IMG/VR virus record: IMGVR_UViG_3300020711_000298
Location: 36,981-100,980 of that record
Source of the DNA: a virus
Direction: 5' to 3' (one strand)
Length of the DNA stretch: 64,000 nt
Position numbers and translations under genes: made by a program. Each line of letters starts with the position of its first letter. Position 1 is the first letter of the stretch. The notes beneath the pieces were generated by a model. That model was not told the origin of the DNA. It made no database searches and saw only the letters and a list, made by a program, of their open reading frames with translations. Below are positions 15,025 through 46,318 of the stretch, piece by piece.

Positions 15025-16938
15025 ATGAAAAAAATTATTTTATTTATTCTAGTTGCGCTGTTGCCGTTTCTAGTTAAAAGTCAAACAATCCCCGCAGCTC
15101 CTGGTACAGGACATTATGTAATTATTGATACTGGGTACAATGTAGGTCCAACCGCAACAGGTACAACTACTGCTACTCTTTATTTCAGAAACAGCACTAC
15201 TAGTGATAAAATCACAGGTATGCAATTTAGAATATGGTACGATAGTCTAGCATTTAATGGTGCTTCTCCAACAGTATCATTACTTTATAGTTCTGCTAAC
15301 AAATATATACAATATGTTACTGATACAACTCATGGTAGTATCACTATCACTTTAGTTTATACTGGTAGTAGTTCAACTTATAATTTAGGAGATAGCGCGG
15401 CTTTTGCTATTACTTTCACTCACAATACTAATACATCTTTATTCAATACTTTAGATAGTATAAAAACACTAAAAGTATCAGGCGCTCAAACATACACTAA
15501 TTTAGCGTCTACTGTTTATGGTAATGATACTACATTAACTATTTACAGTTATGGTGGTAGATTTAATCGTCCTTTCCTTCATTATCATGGTCAATTTGTA
15601 AATGTTACCGGTACTAACACTAGAAACATAACTGTTTCTTTAGAGAAAAAACCTAAAACAAGTGGTACTTGGGTTAATATAAGTACTCAAACAACAGGTG
15701 CTGATGGTAAATTTAATTTTACAACTATATTAGATACTACTTATTGGGCTGCTAGATTAAATATTGAAGGTGATACAATGAATATAGGTAATATTATATC
15801 AACAGCCGATGCTCAAAAAATAAATCGTTTTGTACTTGGATTAGACAATCCTCAAGCTTTTGATTTTTACACTTCTGATGTAAACGGAGACCATAAAATA
15901 TCGATTTCAGATGAATATACTGTTTATGGTAGAATAGCAGGTAGATTTAGTACTTGGGTAAATGGTGTTAAAGATGTTTTATTCTTTACCTCAACCGAAT
16001 ATAGTACTATTTCTTCAAACCCAAATACAAATTATACAGCAACTATCTCAGGTACAACAAACGTATTATTTAATATAGTTGGTGGTAGCGTCGATTCAGT
16101 AACATATTATGTTGTGGGTGTAGGTGATGCTAATGGTACTGGATTTAAAATGGCTAAACTTACTCCAATTCAAATTATTAATCCCAACAATAACAACTAT
16201 ATAATAGATGAAACTGTTGAGTATTATGTAAATAATTTAAATACAATTGAAGTTAATTTACCTTCATTATCAGTAGATGCAGGTAATTTAGTAAATATAC
16301 CTATTAAAGTACTTACAAATGGCGAACAAATAGGTTCATTACAGTTAGCTTTAAAATTTGATACTACATTACTTGATTTTAAAGGTGTAATATCTGAGGA
16401 AAAAGTAGGTAATTGGATGTCATTTATAAACCCAAACAGTGGAGTAGTTGAATGGGGTGGATTTGATGCTAGTAATAATCAACATCTTTTAAATAATGAA
16501 GATCAAGTAGTAACATTACAATTTTTAGCTAAACAACCTAAAGATAATTGGACAACTTCTCCAATATATGTTACTCGTAAATTTGCAGGTAATGCTTTAG
16601 CTACTGATTTAAATATTAATCCTACTGATGGTAGAATTGAAGTTATGAGAATGTCTTCACCTGCTATTAATACAGATAATAATATTGCTTCTATTAATGT
16701 TTATCCTAATCCAACTAGTGGAGAAGTAGTAATTCATTTTTCTGTTCCTAAAGATGGTAATGTGACAGTTGCTTTTTATGATGTTAACGGAAAGAAAAAA
16801 TACACAGTAATACAAACCACAATGCCTAAAGGTGTTTATGCTTACAAAGCAAATATAGATGGATTAGCTAAAGGAGCATATAACGTTGTAATAACAACAA
16901 ATGAATCATCAGCTTACAATAAAACAATTTTAAACTAA
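15025..16938 (+). CDS. Secreted cohesin-like/dockerin protein with T9SS C-terminal sorting domain
   Basis: 637 residues. A signal peptide (1-20, ending LVKSQ) is followed by a beta-rich domain with cohesin character (~30-150). A dockerin-type module lies at ~252-312 with the calcium loop DVNGDHKISISD (285-296), and a second cohesin-like domain at ~411-505 (NIPIKVL, IGSLQLALKFD, VVTLQFLA). The final ~80 residues match the Por/T9SS sorting domain: INVYPNPTSGEVVIHF, then 'FYDVNGKK', 'KGAYNVVI' and a KTILN end. Such tails direct Bacteroidota proteins through the outer membrane to the surface. In a phage this implies export by the infected host, perhaps to alter the cell surface or capture glycans. 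A virion role is possible but does not explain the signal peptide. Confidence 0.75.
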   Translation: MKKIILFILVALLPFLVKSQTIPAAPGTGHYVIIDTGYNVGPTATGTTTATLYFRNSTTSDKITGMQFRIWYDSLAFNGASPTVSLLYSSANKYIQYVTDTTHGSITITLVYTGSSSTYNLGDSAAFAITFTHNTNTSLFNTLDSIKTLKVSGAQTYTNLASTVYGNDTTLTIYSYGGRFNRPFLHYHGQFVNVTGTNTRNITVSLEKKPKTSGTWVNISTQTTGADGKFNFTTILDTTYWAARLNIEGDTMNIGNIISTADAQKINRFVLGLDNPQAFDFYTSDVNGDHKISISDEYTVYGRIAGRFSTWVNGVKDVLFFTSTEYSTISSNPNTNYTATISGTTNVLFNIVGGSVDSVTYYVVGVGDANGTGFKMAKLTPIQIINPNNNNYIIDETVEYYVNNLNTIEVNLPSLSVDAGNLVNIPIKVLTNGEQIGSLQLALKFDTTLLDFKGVISEEKVGNWMSFINPNSGVVEWGGFDASNNQHLLNNEDQVVTLQFLAKQPKDNWTTSPIYVTRKFAGNALATDLNINPTDGRIEVMRMSSPAINTDNNIASINVYPNPTSGEVVIHFSVPKDGNVTVAFYDVNGKKKYTVIQTTMPKGVYAYKANIDGLAKGAYNVVITTNESSAYNKTILN

Positions 16939-35468: not shown

Positions 35469-37085
35469 ATGAGTAAAATTATAGAATTCGGCCCAGAAGC
35501 TAGAAAAAAATTATTTAATGGAGTTGAGAAATTATCCAACGCTGTTACATCAACTTTAGGCCCTAATGGTCGTAATGTTGTTATTTCAAAACCAGGTGAA
35601 TACCCAGCTAGTACAAAAGATGGAGTTACTGTAGCTAAATCAATAACACTTGAAGATCCAATTGAAGAATTAGGTGTACAAATGGTTAAACAAGCTGCTA
35701 TTAAAACAGCAGATACAGCTGGTGATGGTACAACTACATCAACTTTATTAGCGACCGAAATGGTTAGACAAGGTTTAACGCATTTAAGTAACGGAGCTAA
35801 CGCGGTAGAAATTAAACGCAGTATAGATGCCGCTGTTAAAGATGTCCTTGAATTTATACGCACACAAATTAAAGAAAATATATCATCTGAGGAACAACTA
35901 AAACAAATTGCTTCCATCTCAGCAAATAACGATCCTGAAGTAGGAGAATTAATTGCTACAGCTATGGAAAAAGTAGGTCGTGAAGGTGTTGTTCATATTG
36001 AAGAATCAAAATCAGGTGAAACATATCTTGAAACAGTAGAAGGTATGCAGTTTGATCGTGGTTATAAATCACCTTATTTTGTTACTGATAATAACTCAAT
36101 GACTAGTACTTTAAATGATGTTTTAATTCTTATAGCAGATAAAAAATTCACTCAAGTAAAAGAATTATTACCTATACTTGAAGCTGTATCTCAACAAAAT
36201 AAATCTTTACTTATTGTAGCTGAAGATGTTGAAGGTGAAGCATTAGCTACACTTATTGTAAATAAAGCTAGAGGTATATTAAAAGTAGCGGCTGTAAAAG
36301 CTCCTGATTTTGGTGATCGTCGTAAATTGATTTTGGAAGATATGGCTATTTTAACAGGTGGTCAAGTGTTTAGTACTGAAAAAGGTATGAAATTAGATAA
36401 ATTTAGTTGGGATTGGTTTGGTAAAGCACGTGTTGTAACAATTACTAAAGACACTACTACTATTATTGATGGTAAAGGAGATGAAAATTCTGTATCACAA
36501 CGTATAACAGAACTACAACAACAAATTGAAAATTCAAAAACACCATTTGAACAAGAAAAATTACAAGAACGTTTAGCTAAATTTATAGGTGGTGTAGCAA
36601 TTATTCATGTTGGTGGAAATACTGAAACCGAAATGAAAGAAAAGAAAGATCGTGTAGATGATGCTTTACATGCTACAAAAGCAGCCATTGAAGAAGGTAT
36701 TGTACCAGGTGGTGGAGTAGCATTATTACACGCACGTAATGGTATTAAAAACCGTGATACTATTGGCTCTAATATAGTTTGGCATGCTTGCGCAGCCCCA
36801 CTTAATAAAATACTTAAAAACGCAGGATATGAAGATTTAGCAATATTCCAAGTTATAAGTGATACTAACAACAGTGAAAATTGGAATGGTTGGGATTTGA
36901 AAGAAGAAAAATTAACCAACATGAAAGAAGCAGGAATCATCGATCCAGCCAAAGTAACCCGTTGCGCTCTTGAAAATGCAGCATCAGTAGCAGGAACCAT
37001 TTTGTTAACAGAATGTACTGTTGTTGATAAACCAGAAGAAAAGAAAGCAGACGAAGGATTTGGAGGTATGGGAGGAATGTTTTAA
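35469..37085 (+). CDS. groEL: Chaperonin GroEL
   Basis: 538 residues, full length. 'KLSNAVTSTLGPNGRNVVIS', 'STKDGVTVAKSI', AGDGTTTSTLLA (nucleotide binding), 'VVHIEESKSGETYLETVEGM', 'ALHATKAAIEEGIVPGGGVA' and the C-terminal GGMGGMF tail are all present. With the phage GroES it likely folds phage proteins such as capsid or replisome subunits. Complete chaperonin pairs are rare in phages. Located inside the replisome cluster. Confidence 0.97.
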   Translation: MSKIIEFGPEARKKLFNGVEKLSNAVTSTLGPNGRNVVISKPGEYPASTKDGVTVAKSITLEDPIEELGVQMVKQAAIKTADTAGDGTTTSTLLATEMVRQGLTHLSNGANAVEIKRSIDAAVKDVLEFIRTQIKENISSEEQLKQIASISANNDPEVGELIATAMEKVGREGVVHIEESKSGETYLETVEGMQFDRGYKSPYFVTDNNSMTSTLNDVLILIADKKFTQVKELLPILEAVSQQNKSLLIVAEDVEGEALATLIVNKARGILKVAAVKAPDFGDRRKLILEDMAILTGGQVFSTEKGMKLDKFSWDWFGKARVVTITKDTTTIIDGKGDENSVSQRITELQQQIENSKTPFEQEKLQERLAKFIGGVAIIHVGGNTETEMKEKKDRVDDALHATKAAIEEGIVPGGGVALLHARNGIKNRDTIGSNIVWHACAAPLNKILKNAGYEDLAIFQVISDTNNSENWNGWDLKEEKLTNMKEAGIIDPAKVTRCALENAASVAGTILLTECTVVDKPEEKKADEGFGGMGGMF

Positions 37086-40467: not shown

Positions 40468-40890
40468 ATGGATAAAATATTATATCTTACAAGAGGTCTT
40501 CCAGGCTCTGGAAAAACAACTCTGGCTCATCAATTAACAAATTTACATTCTATTTGTGAAGCAGATAAATTCTTCTATGATAAAGAAGGTAATTATAATT
40601 GGGATGGAGATAAACTAAATGAGGCTCACAGTTGGTGTGTAAGTGAAGTTAAAGTTCGAATGATGGATAATGCTAGAAATGAACAATTTTATCCTATAAT
40701 AGTTGTTTCAAATACTTTCACTATGGAAAGTGAAATGGAGCCTTACATAGAACTAGCTAAAAAATATGGTTATACAGTAGTTTCATTAATATTGGAAAAT
40801 AGACATGGCTCTGTATCAAAACATAACGTTCCTGTTAAATCTTTGAACAAAATGGAACAAAGATTGCGACAAAATATAAAACTTCGTTAA
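40468..40890 (+). CDS. P-loop kinase, polynucleotide-kinase-like
   Basis: Start at ATG 40468 (an upstream TTG overlaps the previous gene). 140 residues. Walker A 'RGLPGSGKTTLAHQL', followed by 'CEADKFFYDKEGNYNWDGDK' and VVSNTFTM, then 'LILENRHGSVSKHNVP' and an Arg-rich end. This is the Zeta/PNK-type single-domain kinase pattern, with Asp after the first strand as phosphoacceptor base. It could phosphorylate 5' ends for the RNA ligase encoded downstream. Confidence 0.75.
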   Translation: MDKILYLTRGLPGSGKTTLAHQLTNLHSICEADKFFYDKEGNYNWDGDKLNEAHSWCVSEVKVRMMDNARNEQFYPIIVVSNTFTMESEMEPYIELAKKYGYTVVSLILENRHGSVSKHNVPVKSLNKMEQRLRQNIKLR

Positions 40891-40895
40891 AAAAG

Positions 40896-40928
40896 TTTGG
40901 AGGGGCGAATGTCCCTTCGTACATTTAC
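40896..40928 (+). promoter_or_regulatory. -33/-7 promoter for PRPP-synthetase-like gene
   Basis: TTTGG with TTTG at 40896-40899, 20 bases, TACATTTACG from 40920. The spacer is unusually GC-rich. The same TTTACG ending is found in the promoters at 42214 and 44223. Confidence 0.65.
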
Positions 40929-40948
40929 GTAAATAAAAATAAAAACAT

Positions 40949-41782
40949 ATGATATTAAACCTAGCATATCCTGAAAATTCTCAGGTAAATTTTCAAATAT
41001 CCCAATTTCCAGATGGGCAACAATCTTTAACTATTCTTTCAGGTGTAGGACCTGAGAATTATATTACTATAAGTTCTCATTTAACTTCATTTGAAGATTT
41101 AGAATTAATAATCTGTACCAATGTGGCTTTAAAAGAAATGGGAGTTAAAAATATTGAGTTGTATGTTCCTTATTTTCTAGGTGCTCGTTCAGATAGGAAA
41201 TTTGGTGAAGGTGGATTTAACTATTTAAAAACTGTTATTTGCCCTATAATCAATTCTCAAAATTTTAGTAAAGTAATAGTTTTAGACCCACATTCAGATG
41301 TACTTGAGGCTTGCTTAAATAATTTTGAAAAAAGAAGCAATATAGGAGTTGTATCTCATGCTCTTCAAGGTATTGATGCTGAAAAAGAAGATACAGTAAT
41401 TATATCTCCTGATGCCGGTGCATTAAAAAAGATATACGATGTTGCTAAGGTATTTGACTTACCAAATGTAATTACAGCAGGTAAGGTTAGAGATATTCCA
41501 ACAGGTAAAATATTAAAAACTGAATTACCTAATATTACTCAATTTGAAGGTAAGAAATTCCTTATCATAGACGATATTTGCGATGGAGGTAGAACGTTTA
41601 TTGAACTAGCGAAAGCAATTAAAGAACAAATCCCTGATGCTGAGTGTTATTTATGTGTTACTCATGGTATTTTTAACCAGGGATTTGATGAATTATCAAC
41701 TTATTTTAAAAAAATCTATTGTACAAATAGTGTAAAAGATTTTAATTGGAAACCTTTTATTAATCAACTAGATGTATTTTAA
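40949..41782 (+). CDS. PRPP-synthetase-like enzyme (possible ADP-ribose pyrophosphokinase of an NAD+ reconstitution pathway)
   Basis: 277 residues, a little shorter than bacterial Prs (~310). 'FPDGQQSL', 'YFLGARSDRKF' (as in YFGYARQDR), 'VLDPHSD', SPDAGALKK and the PRPP loop LIIDDICDGGRTF are present. Prs moves pyrophosphate from ATP to ribose-5-phosphate. In phage NARP1 a Prs relative (Adps) does this to ADP-ribose, and a NAMPT relative then adds nicotinamide. A NAMPT-like gene lies 0.5 kb downstream under a matching promoter. Substrate cannot be decided from sequence by eye. Confidence 0.85.
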   Translation: MILNLAYPENSQVNFQISQFPDGQQSLTILSGVGPENYITISSHLTSFEDLELIICTNVALKEMGVKNIELYVPYFLGARSDRKFGEGGFNYLKTVICPIINSQNFSKVIVLDPHSDVLEACLNNFEKRSNIGVVSHALQGIDAEKEDTVIISPDAGALKKIYDVAKVFDLPNVITAGKVRDIPTGKILKTELPNITQFEGKKFLIIDDICDGGRTFIELAKAIKEQIPDAECYLCVTHGIFNQGFDELSTYFKKIYCTNSVKDFNWKPFINQLDVF

Positions 41783-41784
41783 TT

Positions 41785-42210
41785 ATGGACTTAACAAATA
41801 AATACGTTACCCGTCTTAGGAAAGAGTGGGAACAATATGGAAAAATTATAGTTGCAGTAGACTTTGATGACACTATTTCTCCTTGGAAATTTTCAAAAGA
41901 AGAACTTCAAGACACAGTAGACTTAGTAAAAGAAGTACAACAAACCGGAGCTTACATTGTTATATTTACAGCCTGTTCTCCAGATAGATATGAAGAAATT
42001 TCATCTTATGTTAATTCTTTAGGTATCAAAGTAGATGCTATCAATCAAACACCGATAGAGATACCTTATGGTAATCATAACAAAATCTATGCCAATATCT
42101 TTTTAGATGATCGCGCAGGACTTGAAGAAGCCAAAAAAATATTGCGAGAATGCATGTATCTTCAAAGAAGCTTTAAAAGATCGCAAATTACTTTGGACGA
42201 AGTTGGATAA
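41785..42210 (+). CDS. HAD-family phosphatase
   Basis: 141 residues. Motif I is AVDFDDTISPW (Asp26, Asp28), motif II VIFTACSPDRYEE, and motif IV IFLDDRAGLEEA. No cap domain is visible, like small nucleotidases. Starts 2 bases after the PRPP-synthetase-like gene, so the two are co-transcribed; it may remove a phosphate from an intermediate or by-product of that pathway. Confidence 0.82.
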   Translation: MDLTNKYVTRLRKEWEQYGKIIVAVDFDDTISPWKFSKEELQDTVDLVKEVQQTGAYIVIFTACSPDRYEEISSYVNSLGIKVDAINQTPIEIPYGNHNKIYANIFLDDRAGLEEAKKILRECMYLQRSFKRSQITLDEVG

Positions 42211-42213
42211 AAA

Positions 42214-42246
42214 TTTGGCTACCTCAAACATTAGTCGTATATTTAC
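42214..42246 (+). promoter_or_regulatory. -33/-7 promoter for NAMPT-like gene
   Basis: TTTGGCT with TTTG at 42214-42217, 20 bases, TATATTTACG from 42238. Gene start at 42269. Confidence 0.7.
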
Positions 42247-42268
42247 GTAAATAAAAAATTAAAAAATT

Positions 42269-43771
42269 ATGTTTAAACCAGTTAGTTTATTTTACACAGA
42301 CGGATATAAGATTGGCCACAAGAAAATGTTGGCCCCAGGAACCACAAAATTATATGGTACTTGGATTCCTCGTAGCACAAAGTATGCTCCTACCGGTGTT
42401 ACAAAAATAGTATCGTTTGGTCAACAGCTTGTAGTTCGTTGGTTAAATGATGAGTTTACAGAACATTTTTTCAACCAACCAAAATCAGTAGCAACCCAAT
42501 TTGGTAAAGATATGTCAATGTATCTTGGAATGGATTATGATGCTACCCATTTTGAAGCACTTCATGATTTAGGTTATTTACCTATTCGAATTAAAGCATT
42601 ACCAGAAGGTATTGAAACATTACCTAATGTTCCTCATATGACCTTTATTAACACCGTAGATGGTTTTGCTTGGTTAACTTTATATTTGGAAACAATTATT
42701 TCCTCTTTGGCTTGGAAACCTTCAACATCAGCCACTATTGCTCTACAATATCGTAGGAATTTAGTTCAATGGGTTATGAAAACAGATCCGGCTAATGCAT
42801 TTTTAATTCCTTTCCTTGCTCATGATTTCTCTGCTCGCGGTTTATCACCTTGGGATATGTTATCAAGCGGTTTAGGACATGCTACTTCGTTTAGAGGTTC
42901 TGATACCATTATTTGTATTCCGGGTGCTCGTTATTTTTATAATGAACCTGAAACAGAGGTTTGTATCAATTCAGTAAATGCTTCTGAACATAGCGTTTCA
43001 ACAACTAAAATCTTTACGGTTGGTGAACAACAAATGATTGCGGATTGGTTGGTTGATTTTCCTAAAGGAATATTATCAATCGTATCAGATACATTTGATT
43101 TATGGAAATTAATTACCGAATATTTACCAGCAAACAAAGAAGCGATAATGGCTCGTGACGGTAAGTTAGTCATTCGTCCTGACTCAGGTGATCCAGTTGA
43201 TATTATCTGTGGTTCATTTTTACAAAGTGACCGAGATTTATCGGAAAACAAAAATGCAATTTGGACAAGTGAAGAAAAAGGTGTAATCGAATTACTTTGG
43301 GAAATCTTCGGTGGTACAATCAACGAACAAGGTTACAAAGTTCTTGATCCACACATCGGAGCCATTTACGGTGACTCAATTACATTGGAACGTCAGATTC
43401 AAATATATGAAAGGTTAGCCGCTAAAGGTTTTGCTTCAACTAATATTGTACTCGGTATTGGTTCTTATACATATCAAATGAATACTCGTGATACATTAGG
43501 TTTTGCTGCTAAAGGTGCCTGGTTTGAAGTTGATAAAAATGGTACTAAGGTTGGTTATGATATTTACAAAGATCCAGTAACCGATTCAGGTAAAACAAAG
43601 AAATCTTTGAAAGGTCTTATTATGGTAGATGAAAATCTTGAAGTACACACCCAATGTACACCTCAACAAGAGGCTCAAGGTTTACTACAAACCATTTATA
43701 TGGATGGTAAATTCTACAATCAAACAACATTAACTGAAATTCGCGCTAAACTTGAACAAATATGCAAATAA
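42269..43771 (+). CDS. NAMPT-like nicotinamide (ADP-ribosyl/phosphoribosyl)transferase
   Basis: 500 residues, the full length of nicotinamide phosphoribosyltransferase. YTDGYKIGHKKM at the N-terminus, 'HDFSARGLSPWDML' and ATSFRGSDTI, ASEHSV (active-site His), SDTFDLWKLI, VIRPDSGDPVDI, 'GAIYGDSITLERQIQIYERL' and 'IYKDPVTDSGKTKKSLKGLI' follow the family. NAMPT joins nicotinamide to PRPP; the phage variant Namat joins it to ADPR-pyrophosphate to give NAD+ directly. Paired with the Prs-like gene, and no NMN adenylyltransferase gene is seen here, so the direct route is favoured. Confidence 0.92.
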   Translation: MFKPVSLFYTDGYKIGHKKMLAPGTTKLYGTWIPRSTKYAPTGVTKIVSFGQQLVVRWLNDEFTEHFFNQPKSVATQFGKDMSMYLGMDYDATHFEALHDLGYLPIRIKALPEGIETLPNVPHMTFINTVDGFAWLTLYLETIISSLAWKPSTSATIALQYRRNLVQWVMKTDPANAFLIPFLAHDFSARGLSPWDMLSSGLGHATSFRGSDTIICIPGARYFYNEPETEVCINSVNASEHSVSTTKIFTVGEQQMIADWLVDFPKGILSIVSDTFDLWKLITEYLPANKEAIMARDGKLVIRPDSGDPVDIICGSFLQSDRDLSENKNAIWTSEEKGVIELLWEIFGGTINEQGYKVLDPHIGAIYGDSITLERQIQIYERLAAKGFASTNIVLGIGSYTYQMNTRDTLGFAAKGAWFEVDKNGTKVGYDIYKDPVTDSGKTKKSLKGLIMVDENLEVHTQCTPQQEAQGLLQTIYMDGKFYNQTTLTEIRAKLEQICK

Positions 43772-44235
43772 TCAAACCAAACACATTTAACCAAGATAAA
43801 TCATCTATTACTGTATTTTTAGCAGGCTCCATTGAAATGGGGGCTGCTGAAAATTGGCAGCAAAAACTAGAAAATATTCTTGAAGATATTGAACAAGAAA
43901 TAACATTGTTTAATCCTCGCCGCGATGATTGGGATTCAAGTTGGGTACAAAAACAAACCAATCCTCAATTCAACCATCAAGTAAATTGGGAATTAAACAT
44001 GCTAGATAAATCAGATATTATATTCATGTATTTTTCTCCAGAAACAAAATCTCCTATTTCGTTGCTTGAATTGGGTTTATATGCTCATAACGGTAAAATG
44101 ATAGTGTGTTGTCCTGATGAGTTTTGGAGGAAAGGTAACGTTGATATTGTTTGTACACGATATAACATTCCATTGTTTAACAATTTTGATGAAGCTGTTG
44201 GTGCTCTACTTACTAAAATAAGTTTGGCTTATTAA
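43762..44235 (+). CDS. Nucleoside 2-deoxyribosyltransferase-like protein
   Basis: 157 residues, overlapping the NAMPT-like stop by 10 bases. VFLAGSIEMG, LFNPRRDDWDSSW, 'QVNWELNMLDKSDIIFMYF' and SLLELGLYAH (Glu nucleophile) fit the deoxyribosyltransferase fold. These enzymes cleave or swap N-glycosidic bonds. Overlap with the NAMPT-like gene suggests a shared pathway in NAD+ or nucleotide metabolism. Confidence 0.78.
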   Translation: MQIIKPNTFNQDKSSITVFLAGSIEMGAAENWQQKLENILEDIEQEITLFNPRRDDWDSSWVQKQTNPQFNHQVNWELNMLDKSDIIFMYFSPETKSPISLLELGLYAHNGKMIVCCPDEFWRKGNVDIVCTRYNIPLFNNFDEAVGALLTKISLAY

Positions 44236-44255
44236 AAAATAGATCGTATATTTAC
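44223..44255 (+). promoter_or_regulatory. -33/-7 promoter for paralogous pair
   Basis: TTTGGCT with TTTG at 44223-44226, 20 bases, TATATTTACG from 44247. The -33 box lies inside the last codons of the previous gene. Confidence 0.65.
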
Positions 44256-44278
44256 GGAAATAAAAAAAAAATAAGGTT

Positions 44279-44716
44279 ATGAAAGAACAATTTGTACCAT
44301 ACGAAATAGCCAAAAAATTAGAAGAGAAAGGATTTGATGAAGAATGTTTAGCTGGTTATTATGTGTTTGGTGGTAATAAAGAACAAGGTGGTGATGAACA
44401 AACAGAGCCAGAACTTTTTATGGATGGATATGATATTGATTATAGAGAGGCAGAATTAAATATGCACGCATATTATTATTGTGATGCACCTCTTTGGCAA
44501 CAAGTAGTTGATTGGCTTCGTGAAGAAAAGAATATAAATATAATCATTGATAAAGTAAGCGATTCAGAATATGTTTATCATAATTATTTTCAAGAATTAA
44601 TTACAGGTAAAGGTCGAATAAAATTTGGTGCTGGGCAGGATGAAGATATTGAGATTGAATATACTTACTTTCAAGCAAGACAAGCAGCAATCGAACATGC
44701 ATTAACACTTATTTAA
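44279..44716 (+). CDS. MKEQFVPYEIA-type protein, copy 1
   Basis: 145 residues, acidic. It opens MKEQFVPYEIAKKLEEKGFD, has APLWQQVVDWLREEKNI in the middle and ends ARQAAIEHALTLI. This family is frequent in Bacteroidota phages and prophages; its function is unknown. The next gene is a clear paralogue. Confidence 0.75.
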   Translation: MKEQFVPYEIAKKLEEKGFDEECLAGYYVFGGNKEQGGDEQTEPELFMDGYDIDYREAELNMHAYYYCDAPLWQQVVDWLREEKNINIIIDKVSDSEYVYHNYFQELITGKGRIKFGAGQDEDIEIEYTYFQARQAAIEHALTLI

Positions 44717-44717
44717 T

Positions 44718-44749
44718 ATGAAAGAACAATTTGTACCATACGAAATAGC
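44718..44749 (+). repeat. 32-bp direct repeat at starts of the paralogous pair
   Basis: Bases 44718-44749 are identical to 44279-44310, while the following DNA differs, so identity at the start exceeds that of the rest of the genes. Confidence 0.9.
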
Positions 44750-45116
44750 TATAATCTTAAAAGAAAAAGGTTTTAATGAAGATTGTTTAGGTATATATAT
44801 CGATAAAGAATTAACTATAGGTTTACCGGAAACTACATTAAATGTAATTACTAAATATTATGATATTCTTGAAAAAGAAGAATATTTATTAGCTCCTTTA
44901 TGGCAACAAGTAATTGATTGGTTAAGGGAAAAACATCGTTTTATTATAACCATAGATTTTTTAAACAAACAAGAATCATTACACCCTAACGACCCAGAAT
45001 GGACATCAGAATTATATAATATGGATAACTTTCATCATATCATAGCTGAATACGATAGATACTCATACGAAGACGCAAGACAAGTAACTATTGAACACGC
45101 ACTAACATTAATATAA
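44718..45116 (+). CDS. MKEQFVPYEIA-type protein, copy 2
   Basis: 132 residues with the same opening, APLWQQVIDWLREKHRF and the ending 'ARQVTIEHALTLI'. It lies one base after copy 1. The middle (residues ~20-50) differs strongly, so the copies have diverged except at both ends. Function unknown. Confidence 0.75.
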   Translation: MKEQFVPYEIAIILKEKGFNEDCLGIYIDKELTIGLPETTLNVITKYYDILEKEEYLLAPLWQQVIDWLREKHRFIITIDFLNKQESLHPNDPEWTSELYNMDNFHHIIAEYDRYSYEDARQVTIEHALTLI

Positions 45117-45117
45117 T

Positions 45118-45192
45118 ATGGTAATAAAAATCTTTATAGCAATAATAATAACACTTATACTTTTACCTAATTTTAAAAAAAATGGAAAATAA
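45118..45192 (+). CDS. Possible 24-residue membrane peptide
   Basis: ATG at 45118, 1 base after the previous stop, encodes a short hydrophobic peptide (VIKIFIAIIITLILLPNF) ending KKNGK and overlapping the RNA ligase start. Too short to be certain. Confidence 0.3.
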   Translation: MVIKIFIAIIITLILLPNFKKNGK

Positions 45193-46318
45193 CAATAGCG
45201 TTTGCTTCATAGCAAAAATAAACGAAATAAAAGAAATACCTGGAGCCGACAACATCGAACAGGCAATGGTAGGTAACTGGTCTTGCATCATTAAAAAAGG
45301 AGCTTATGCCGAAGGTGGTTTAGTGGTTTGTGCTACTACAGATGCTGTTATACCTGAAGACTTGGCCGAAAAGATGAACGTAACAAACTACTTACGTAAG
45401 GGTAACCGTGTGCGTACAGTAAAGCTTCGTGGGGTCTATTCCGAGTGTTTGATCATACCACTAATGTTTATTCCTAAAACATTTCAAGGCAAAATAGTAG
45501 AAGGAGCAGATATGATGGAGGTAATGGGAATTACAAAGTTTGAACCCCCAGTAAAGCAAATTCAACTCGCTTCAGGTAAAAAAATACGCTATAGTGAAAA
45601 TCCAAATTTTCATATATACTATAAATTTCCAAATCTTAAAAACGTATCAGGTATGTTTACAGAAGAGGACTCGGTTCAAATCACACGTAAGATACACGGC
45701 ACAAATGCTCGTTATGGTATAGTGAAAAAGAACAAATTATCTTTTTGGGATAAATTCAGAAAGTTCTTTAGGATAGCTAATGAATGGATTGATTACGAGT
45801 TTGTAGTAGGTTCACATAACGTTGAAAAGGGATCCGATTCTCAAGGTTTCTATGATACAAATGTTTGGTATGAAATAGCCAACAAATATAAGATCAAAGA
45901 AAAGCTTTGGGATTATGTAAAAAAGTATATGCCTTTAGAAGAACTAGGTTCTGGTGTTGTGATATATGGTGAAATCTACGGTGCCGGTATTCAAAGGGGT
46001 TATGATTATGGTCTTAAGGATATTCAATTTGCTGGATTTGATGTTATGGAAAATGGGCAATATTTGAGTACGTTTAATACTCTTCTTGTTTTGAAAAGCA
46101 TGATGGATTTACCTCATGTCCCTGTATTATACGATGGTCATTGGTCTCAAGAAATTCAAGATAAACTTACATTCAATAACTTTATTGAAGGTACAAAAGT
46201 ACCACACGAAGGTATTGTTATCAAGCATACTTCAGGTGATCGTTCTAAAGTCGCAAAGGTGATTAACCCCGACTATTTGATTTACGGAGAAAAACACGAT
46301 ATAGGAGATTCACATTAA
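45182..46318 (+). CDS. RNA ligase, Rnl5 / DRB0094 family
   Basis: 378 residues. The N-terminal OB-type domain (1-110) has 'EIPGADNIEQAMVGNWSCII' and 'VRTVKLRGVYSECLIIPL', typical of this family. The nucleotidyltransferase domain has motif I TRKIHGTNARYG (Lys-x-His-Gly), 'YEFVVGSHN', VIYGEIYGAGIQ, and motif IV/V 'HEGIVIKHTSG' with 'SKVAKVIN'. Rnl5 enzymes seal nicks in RNA using ATP. With the kinase and phosphoesterase upstream it could repair tRNAs cut by host anticodon nucleases. Confidence 0.85.
   Translation: MENNNSVCFIAKINEIKEIPGADNIEQAMVGNWSCIIKKGAYAEGGLVVCATTDAVIPEDLAEKMNVTNYLRKGNRVRTVKLRGVYSECLIIPLMFIPKTFQGKIVEGADMMEVMGITKFEPPVKQIQLASGKKIRYSENPNFHIYYKFPNLKNVSGMFTEEDSVQITRKIHGTNARYGIVKKNKLSFWDKFRKFFRIANEWIDYEFVVGSHNVEKGSDSQGFYDTNVWYEIANKYKIKEKLWDYVKKYMPLEELGSGVVIYGEIYGAGIQRGYDYGLKDIQFAGFDVMENGQYLSTFNTLLVLKSMMDLPHVPVLYDGHWSQEIQDKLTFNNFIEGTKVPHEGIVIKHTSGDRSKVAKVINPDYLIYGEKHDIGDSH

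Follow-up and report, generated by a model that had tools for sequence, protein, structure and literature searches.

Known systems and the cluster studied

NARP1 is a phage pathway for the reconstitution of nicotinamide adenine dinucleotide (NAD+), with Adps and Namat as its core enzymes. Adps and Namat of phage DyoEdafos are both active in vitro, and the NARP1 operon of this phage contains RyDEP, an O-glycosidase that releases ADP-ribose from 2′cADPR and 3′cADPR (cADPR, cyclic ADP-ribose) for Adps in vitro (PMC13232231). Beside the NARP1 of Pakpunavirus lies a Poa1p-like macro domain, for which release of ADP-ribose from 1″-derivatives has been proposed (PMC12846349). Namats are defined by a clamp, which consists of a helix with the motif GSX..TRD, whose positions 3 and 7 (F392 and Y396 in SPbetaL1) are most often aromatic, and a loop residue, being R40 in SPbetaL1, or else Lys or Tyr with a stacking residue after it (PMC12774641). 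In this study, a four-gene cluster was analysed in a 64,000-nucleotide stretch of viral DNA (the window), comprising bases 36,981–100,980 of the 100,980-base record IMGVR_UViG_3300020711_000298, which has no end repeats and may be a fragment. The cluster is probably a NARP1-type NAD+ reconstitution pathway, with a PF15891 gene and a HAD gene as linked accessories.

A first-pass annotation had claimed a Prs-like gene, a HAD phosphatase gene, a NAMPT-like gene and a deoxyribosyltransferase-like gene. The list of open reading frames (ORFs) showed all four to be present, intact, closely spaced and on the + strand, with the start codon of the PF15891 gene overlapping the 3′ end of the Namat gene:

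40949..41782, + strand: putative Adps-type (Prs-like) ADP-ribose pyrophosphate synthetase, 277 aa (loop IDDICDGGRTF, family matches, tree)
41785..42210, + strand: HAD-superfamily phosphatase-like protein, 141 aa (intact DFDDT, T62, K100 and DDR; recurs beside Adps/Namat)
42269..43771, + strand: putative Namat-type nicotinamide ADP-ribose transferase (NAMPT-like), 500 aa, full length (clamp GSYTYQMNTRD, loop PRSTKYAP, tree)
43762..44235, + strand: PF15891 nucleoside 2-deoxyribosyltransferase-like (DrHyd-type) N-glycosidase candidate, 157 aa (profile match, invariant E103)

The nearest named relatives were two phages, Tenacibaculum phage PTm1 and one whose record comes from a Leptolyngbya culture, and the host of the virus is a bacterium of the Bacteroidota type.

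Identification of Namat and Adps

The NAMPT-like protein matched NAPRTase, PHROG 448 and NCBIfam PRK09198 (above cut-off), and its second-best match in the PDB was 9w5w (SPbetaL1 Namat), tied with the sister entry 9w5x. In a phylogeny, which the first-pass annotation had proposed as a check, it grouped with the validated Namats of SPbetaL1, ICP1 and DyoEdafos, and seven Nampts split off at 100/100; its identity was 40–46% to Namats versus 29–33% to Nampts. The clamp helix, GSYTYQMNTRD, fits the GSX..TRD motif and the Namat length and has Tyr at position 3 and Met at position 7, and the clamp loop (PRSTKYAP) has Lys at the third position followed by Tyr, as described for Namats. Nampts of Xanthomonas, KP27, KVP40-like PVA8, Aeromonas 60 and Tunturi_5 have G-GG-LLQ-type (GGGLLQ) motifs instead. 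The Nampt-like catalytic core is kept, with equivalents of D13, Y15, F189, S190, R192, D215, R306, D308, G360 and D361 and with SEHS. Tree and motifs support the identification of this protein as a Namat.

The Prs-like protein matched Pribosyltran and PHROG 619. Its phosphoribosyl pyrophosphate (PRPP) loop, DDICDGGRTF, is of the DDICDGG type of validated Adps; the loop is DDICDGGGTF in DyoEdafos Adps and DDICDGAASF in ICP1 NrsA, as against DDIIDTAGT in the Prs of B. subtilis and DDIISTGGT in two archaeal-type Prs. A second tree placed the protein among phage Adps-type proteins and split it from Prs at 100/100, with a thin outgroup of three solved Prs. Tree and loop support an Adps-type protein, an assignment weaker than that of the Namat because the loop criterion was derived in this analysis and the outgroup is small.

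The direct NARP-like route to NAD+ favoured by the first-pass annotation is thus supported by both trees and by the clamp and loop signatures. By analogy with validated relatives, Adps (40949–41782) would convert ADP-ribose and ATP to ADP-ribose pyrophosphate (ADPR-PP), and Namat (42269–43771) would join ADPR-PP and nicotinamide to give NAD+ in a single step, so that no nicotinamide mononucleotide (NMN) adenylyltransferase would be needed. ADP-ribose and nicotinamide are both left over when defences cleave NAD+, so that the phage could undo NAD+ depletion.

The same annotation had seen no NMN adenylyltransferase, and this holds for the record as far as it goes, the record being incomplete. No ADENYLYLTRANSFERASE was found: the PF01467 profile, at E values up to 1, gave 0 matches in the 100,980-bp record (possibly incomplete), and it gave matches in 14/14 control genomes. 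The adenylyltransferase of Tunturi_5, used as a query, had no match in the record either. For NadV/NadM salvage (NARP2-like), the window protein lies outside the Nampt clade and the partner adenylyltransferase was not found in the record. Larger related contigs do contain PF01467 matches, many of them in ORFs of approximately 140 or 620 aa that are suspected to be sugar/polyol cytidylyltransferases, and the Tunturi_5 query gave only weak matches inside ORFs of 1,400–1,500 aa in two related contigs. These weak matches were located at G018:C1:123703-124164 and G020:C1:187419-187862 (the contigs of loci L060 and L062), in ORFs of 1503 and 1437 aa, and both large phage contigs also carry Namat.

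Features of the PF15891 and HAD proteins

The 157-aa PF15891 protein scored 130.7 bits against its profile (cut-off 30), and its structure model had a predicted local distance difference test (pLDDT) score of 93.7. The best fold match was the uncharacterised structure 4mcj (Z 22.0, root-mean-square deviation (rmsd) 1.5 over 145 residues), followed by YtoQ (Z 13.4), by DNPH1/RCL and the CMP N-glycosidase MilB (Z approximately 11, rmsd 3–4, approximately 134 residues) and, more weakly, by the TIR domains of TIR-STING and SPARTA (Z 9–10). E103 is invariant in 44 sequences and, judging from NDT and MilB relatives, would be the catalytic Glu of a candidate N-glycosidase. In Iyer et al. 2022 (PMC9503650), TIR, deoxyribohydrolase and SLOG folds form a single clade working on N-glycosidic bonds, only cyclase-type viral members of the family are reported, and PF15891 beside NadV-like genes is not mentioned in the text consulted.

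PHROG 1238 was the only family to recognise the HAD protein apart from the NCBIfam equivalog BT0820, which scored below its cut-off (29.6 bits, cut-off 165); because of this low score, it was classed as a HAD-superfamily protein and not as a BT0820 equivalog. The superfamily motifs (DxDxT, T/S, K and DD) are all kept as D26, D28, T30, T62, K100, D108 and D109, and the fold of the model matched BT_0820 first and then, far more weakly, T4 Pnkp.

Gene neighbourhoods in viral genomes

Viral Namat loci were collected regardless of their neighbours (n = 80), 55 with Namats less than 90% identical were kept, and the neighbouring ORFs were clustered blindly. Adps/Prs was the commonest neighbour (48/55) and PF15891 the second commonest (32/55), followed by an SPFH/Band_7 protein (20/55), HAD (19/55), RNA ligase (18/55), a NADAR domain gene (13/55, e.g. 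L064:5027-5536) and a Swiss-army-knife HAD (13/55). The SPFH/Band_7 neighbour is approximately 620 aa long (e.g. L011:9856-11715). In Citrobacter phage Tr1 (L129:5116-7770), the Namat ORF has 885 aa, approximately 390 above the usual length, perhaps owing to an intein or a fused domain.

When the search was reversed to start from PF15891, Namat was found in 37 of the 38 dereplicated viral loci having at least 5 kb on each side; the median gap between the two genes was 250 bp over all dereplicated viral loci. A genome-wide scan placed PF15891 1–7 kb from Namat in all 16 of the Namat-seeded contigs (82–430 kb) that bear PF15891, and under random placement such closeness had a summed log10 P of -24 over 15 contigs, uncorrected for relatedness. 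Gene orders were diverse, including PRS-HAD-NAMPT-NDT, PRS-NDT-NAMPT, NAMPT-PRS-HAD-NDT and NDT-NAMPT-PRS among others; because they vary so widely, simple shared synteny cannot explain the linkage of PF15891 to the core. HAD lies immediately beside Adps/Namat in crAss-like cr111, Vibrio phage VPT02 and Aeromonas phage PhAER-3, and tblastn coordinates showed it to adjoin Namat in cr126, DAC15 and PTm1. The first-pass annotation had suggested that the partners of the core, HAD and the deoxyribosyltransferase-like gene, could have been added to the pathway, and strong neighbourhood statistics back this. PF15891 and HAD are functionally linked to the NARP1 core as judged from this association, and we infer their chemistry.

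Bacterial operons

Scanning of bacterial genomes with PF15891 gave 80 loci, of which 38, from Flavobacterium, Aquimarina, Pedobacter, Chitinophaga and Bacteroidetes assemblies, had an Adps-type gene (DDICDGG); the Namat motif was present in nearly all of these 38 where Namat falls inside the locus. They also contained NrtR (34), KptA (32), NADAR (30), metallophosphoesterase (27), Macro (22) and DUF4291 (18) genes, each of which occurred in 0 or 1 of the 42 loci without Adps (Fisher p 2e-6 to 2e-18, related species not being independent). The layout in Bacteroidota chromosomes was NrtR - Adps - PF15891 - [NADAR/DUF4291/Macro/KptA/metallophosphoesterase] - Namat, as in L213:6171-13944, L254:7171-14341, L255 and L264. 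NrtR relatives sense ADP-ribose, according to work cited in PMC9503650. These operons suggest a cellular recycling of NAD+ tied to RNA 2′-phosphate removal.

In bacterial assembly contigs L190:6758-9957, L194:6758-9955 and L256:6769-9880, the four families of the window (Adps, HAD, PF15891 and Namat) were contiguous, L190 being flanked by cellular-type neighbours. Of 118 Bacteroidota genomes drawn evenly, 7 had Namat and, with the seed excluded, both genomes with a strong PF15891 match had Namat 6–8 kb away (p = 0.002). In the Namat tree, the viral clade of the window was sister to Aquimarina chromosomal Namats (100/99), which fits an exchange between host and phage, with no direction indicated.

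Promoters and other features of the window

The first-pass annotation had described near-identical promoters ahead of the Prs-like and NAMPT-like genes. This was borne out, and a third copy lies ahead of the next gene downstream of the cluster, an ORF at 44279–44716. The sequence TCGTANATTTACG occurred exactly three times (40917, 42235 and 44244), with 0.23 occurrences expected at up to one mismatch. All three copies fit the pattern TTTG-N20-TAnnTTTA, which we take to be a Bacteroidota promoter of the -33/-7 type:

40896..40929, + strand: promoter-like TTTG-N20-TACATTTACG, before Adps
42214..42247, + strand: promoter-like TTTG-N20-TATATTTACG, before Namat
44223..44256, + strand: promoter-like element, third copy, before ORF 44279

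Looser TTTG/TAnnTTTR matches numbered 19 across the window versus 8.8 expected. The promoter type is therefore a general one, and it is only in its near-identical TCGTANATTTACG form that it is limited to the cluster. The idea of promoters specific to NARP1 accordingly holds only in part. Elsewhere, the window encodes a Cpn60/TCP-1 chaperonin-family protein (35469–37085) and a protein (15025–16938) that combines a cohesin domain with a sorting tail of the Bacteroidota Por secretion system.

Possible roles of the accessory genes and alternative explanations

By analogy with RyDEP and the Poa1p-like macro domain, the mechanism that we propose as the most likely is that PF15891 and HAD feed Adps, releasing free ADP-ribose from its derivatives. 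The bond broken by PF15891 would be an N-glycosidic one, such as that of N-linked cyclic ADP-ribose or of His-ADPR signals, and HAD would remove a phosphate, for example from ADP-ribose-1″-phosphate. These substrates are put forward only tentatively, and nucleotide salvage or RNA-end repair are open as alternative roles for the accessories. A bolder and rather doubtful extension is that the PF15891 proteins of NARP1 clusters form a new class of hydrolases that break N-glycosidic ADP-ribose signals or adducts (N1-cADPR, N7-cADPR and His-ADPR), on which RyDEP is not known to act, and hand ADP-ribose to Adps. In this view, phages would have traded the core with operons of Bacteroidota in which the NAD+ consumed by KptA and by further ADP-ribosyl chemistry is recycled. 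If PF15891 were such a hydrolase, one cluster would both silence the signal and rebuild NAD+.

Several observations weigh against a NARP1 pathway with linked accessories. The second position at which the clamp helix contacts adenine, Tyr396 in SPbetaL1, has Met in place of Tyr/Phe in the window; Met is found at this position in 21 of 90 Namat-side rows, and the DyoEdafos Namat has His. The closest relative, L004 (94–98% DNA identity over aligned pieces), has neither PF15891 nor the ORF that follows it, the two sequences differing by a clean 0.96 kb (window 43757–44717, L004 near 9540), and since L004 does without it, PF15891 is optional or dispensable. Phages X1, DLP_6, Slicko01, Lactobacillus 3-521 and Erythrobacter phages have PF15891 with no Namat annotated nearby. 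A strict specificity of PF15891 for NARP1 everywhere was rejected, given these unrelated phages and the 16 of 44 well-flanked bacterial loci that have neither Adps nor Namat. Window ORFs 44279–44716 and 44718–45116 begin with identical codons (MKEQFVPYEIA), and recombination between these repeats could have given rise to the 0.96-kb difference.

The core may be NARP1 while PF15891 (nucleotide salvage) and HAD (a 3′-phosphatase of RNA repair) have unrelated jobs and merely share an early-gene region, the latter acting with two further genes of the window:

40474..40890, + strand: AAA_33 P-loop kinase-like gene, just upstream of the cluster (family match; in Pseudomonas phage PAK_P4 also upstream of Prs)
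45182..46318, + strand: RNA ligase gene (family match; a frequent wider neighbour, in 18/55 viral Namat loci)

RNA ligase, AAA_33, metallophosphoesterase and Swiss-army-knife HAD genes do recur nearby, T4 Pnkp follows BT_0820, at a far weaker level, among the fold matches of HAD, and some phages have PF15891 but not NARP1. We nevertheless consider unrelated jobs rather improbable, as PF15891 is nearer and far commoner than the other non-core neighbours (32/55 versus 20 for the next), travels with the core across differing gene orders and lies within chromosomal Adps/Namat operons, and HAD adjoins Adps/Namat in unrelated phages (crAss cr111, VPT02 and PhAER-3).

It is also unlikely that the main function of the pathway is to recycle NAD+ consumed by metabolism or by RNA repair, with anti-defence only incidental. 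The KptA, NrtR, NADAR and Macro genes of the bacterial Adps loci (32, 34, 30 and 22 of 38, against at most 1 of 42 without Adps) and the RNA ligase genes close to the phage copies would agree with such recycling, but KptA and Macro matches were absent from the phage loci in the comparison of PF15891 loci, and phage NARP1 has been reported to counter NAD+-depleting defences (PMC12774641).

Ordinary salvage by Prs and Nampt, in which PRPP and nicotinamide give NMN and a host adenylyltransferase completes NAD+, is suggested by the database names and by the formation of NMN from PRPP by Namat in vitro (PMC12774641), but it was rejected as very improbable since the trees, clamp motif and PRPP loop contradict it.

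Comparison with known systems

The core of the cluster is the known NARP1, and its combination with PF15891 and HAD is not described in the literature searched; that literature, which left out the founding NARP1 paper in Nature, does not mention a link between PF15891 and NARP1. Like NARP1 of SPbetaL1, ICP1 (NrsA/NrsB) and DyoEdafos, the window has both enzymes close together, the clamp motif, the PRPP-loop type and no adenylyltransferase found, but it differs from them in having HAD between the core genes, PF15891 downstream of Namat, a promoter of its own for each of Adps and Namat, and Met at the position of SPbetaL1 Tyr396. KVP40-like NadV/NadM salvage also uses a NAMPT-family phage enzyme, but one of the Nampt clade with the GGGLLQ motif and an adenylyltransferase partner.

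The chromosomal NARP1 of Paenibacillus foliorum consists of Adps and Namat and is active (PMC12774641), and compared with it the Bacteroidota operons add NrtR, PF15891, NADAR, Macro, KptA and phosphoesterase genes. The 2026 Namat study left the physiological role of bacterial NARP1 open (PMC12774641); the chromosomal operons offer a testable one, namely that NAD+ is recycled from ADP-ribose derivatives of RNA repair and ADP-ribosylation.

As in DyoEdafos, an accessory gene lies inside the NARP1 cluster; RyDEP is an RyR-domain O-glycosidase, whereas the accessory of the window is a candidate with the deoxyribosyltransferase fold. Pakpunavirus NARP1 (e.g. PAK_P4) likewise has an accessory predicted to free ADP-ribose, but this is a macro domain instead of HAD and PF15891 (PMC12846349). 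PF15891 and HAD are candidates for a third and a fourth NARP1 component, for which RyDEP and the Poa1p-like macro domain would be counterparts, and the four together suggest a general scheme in which enzymes supplying ADP-ribose are exchangeable.

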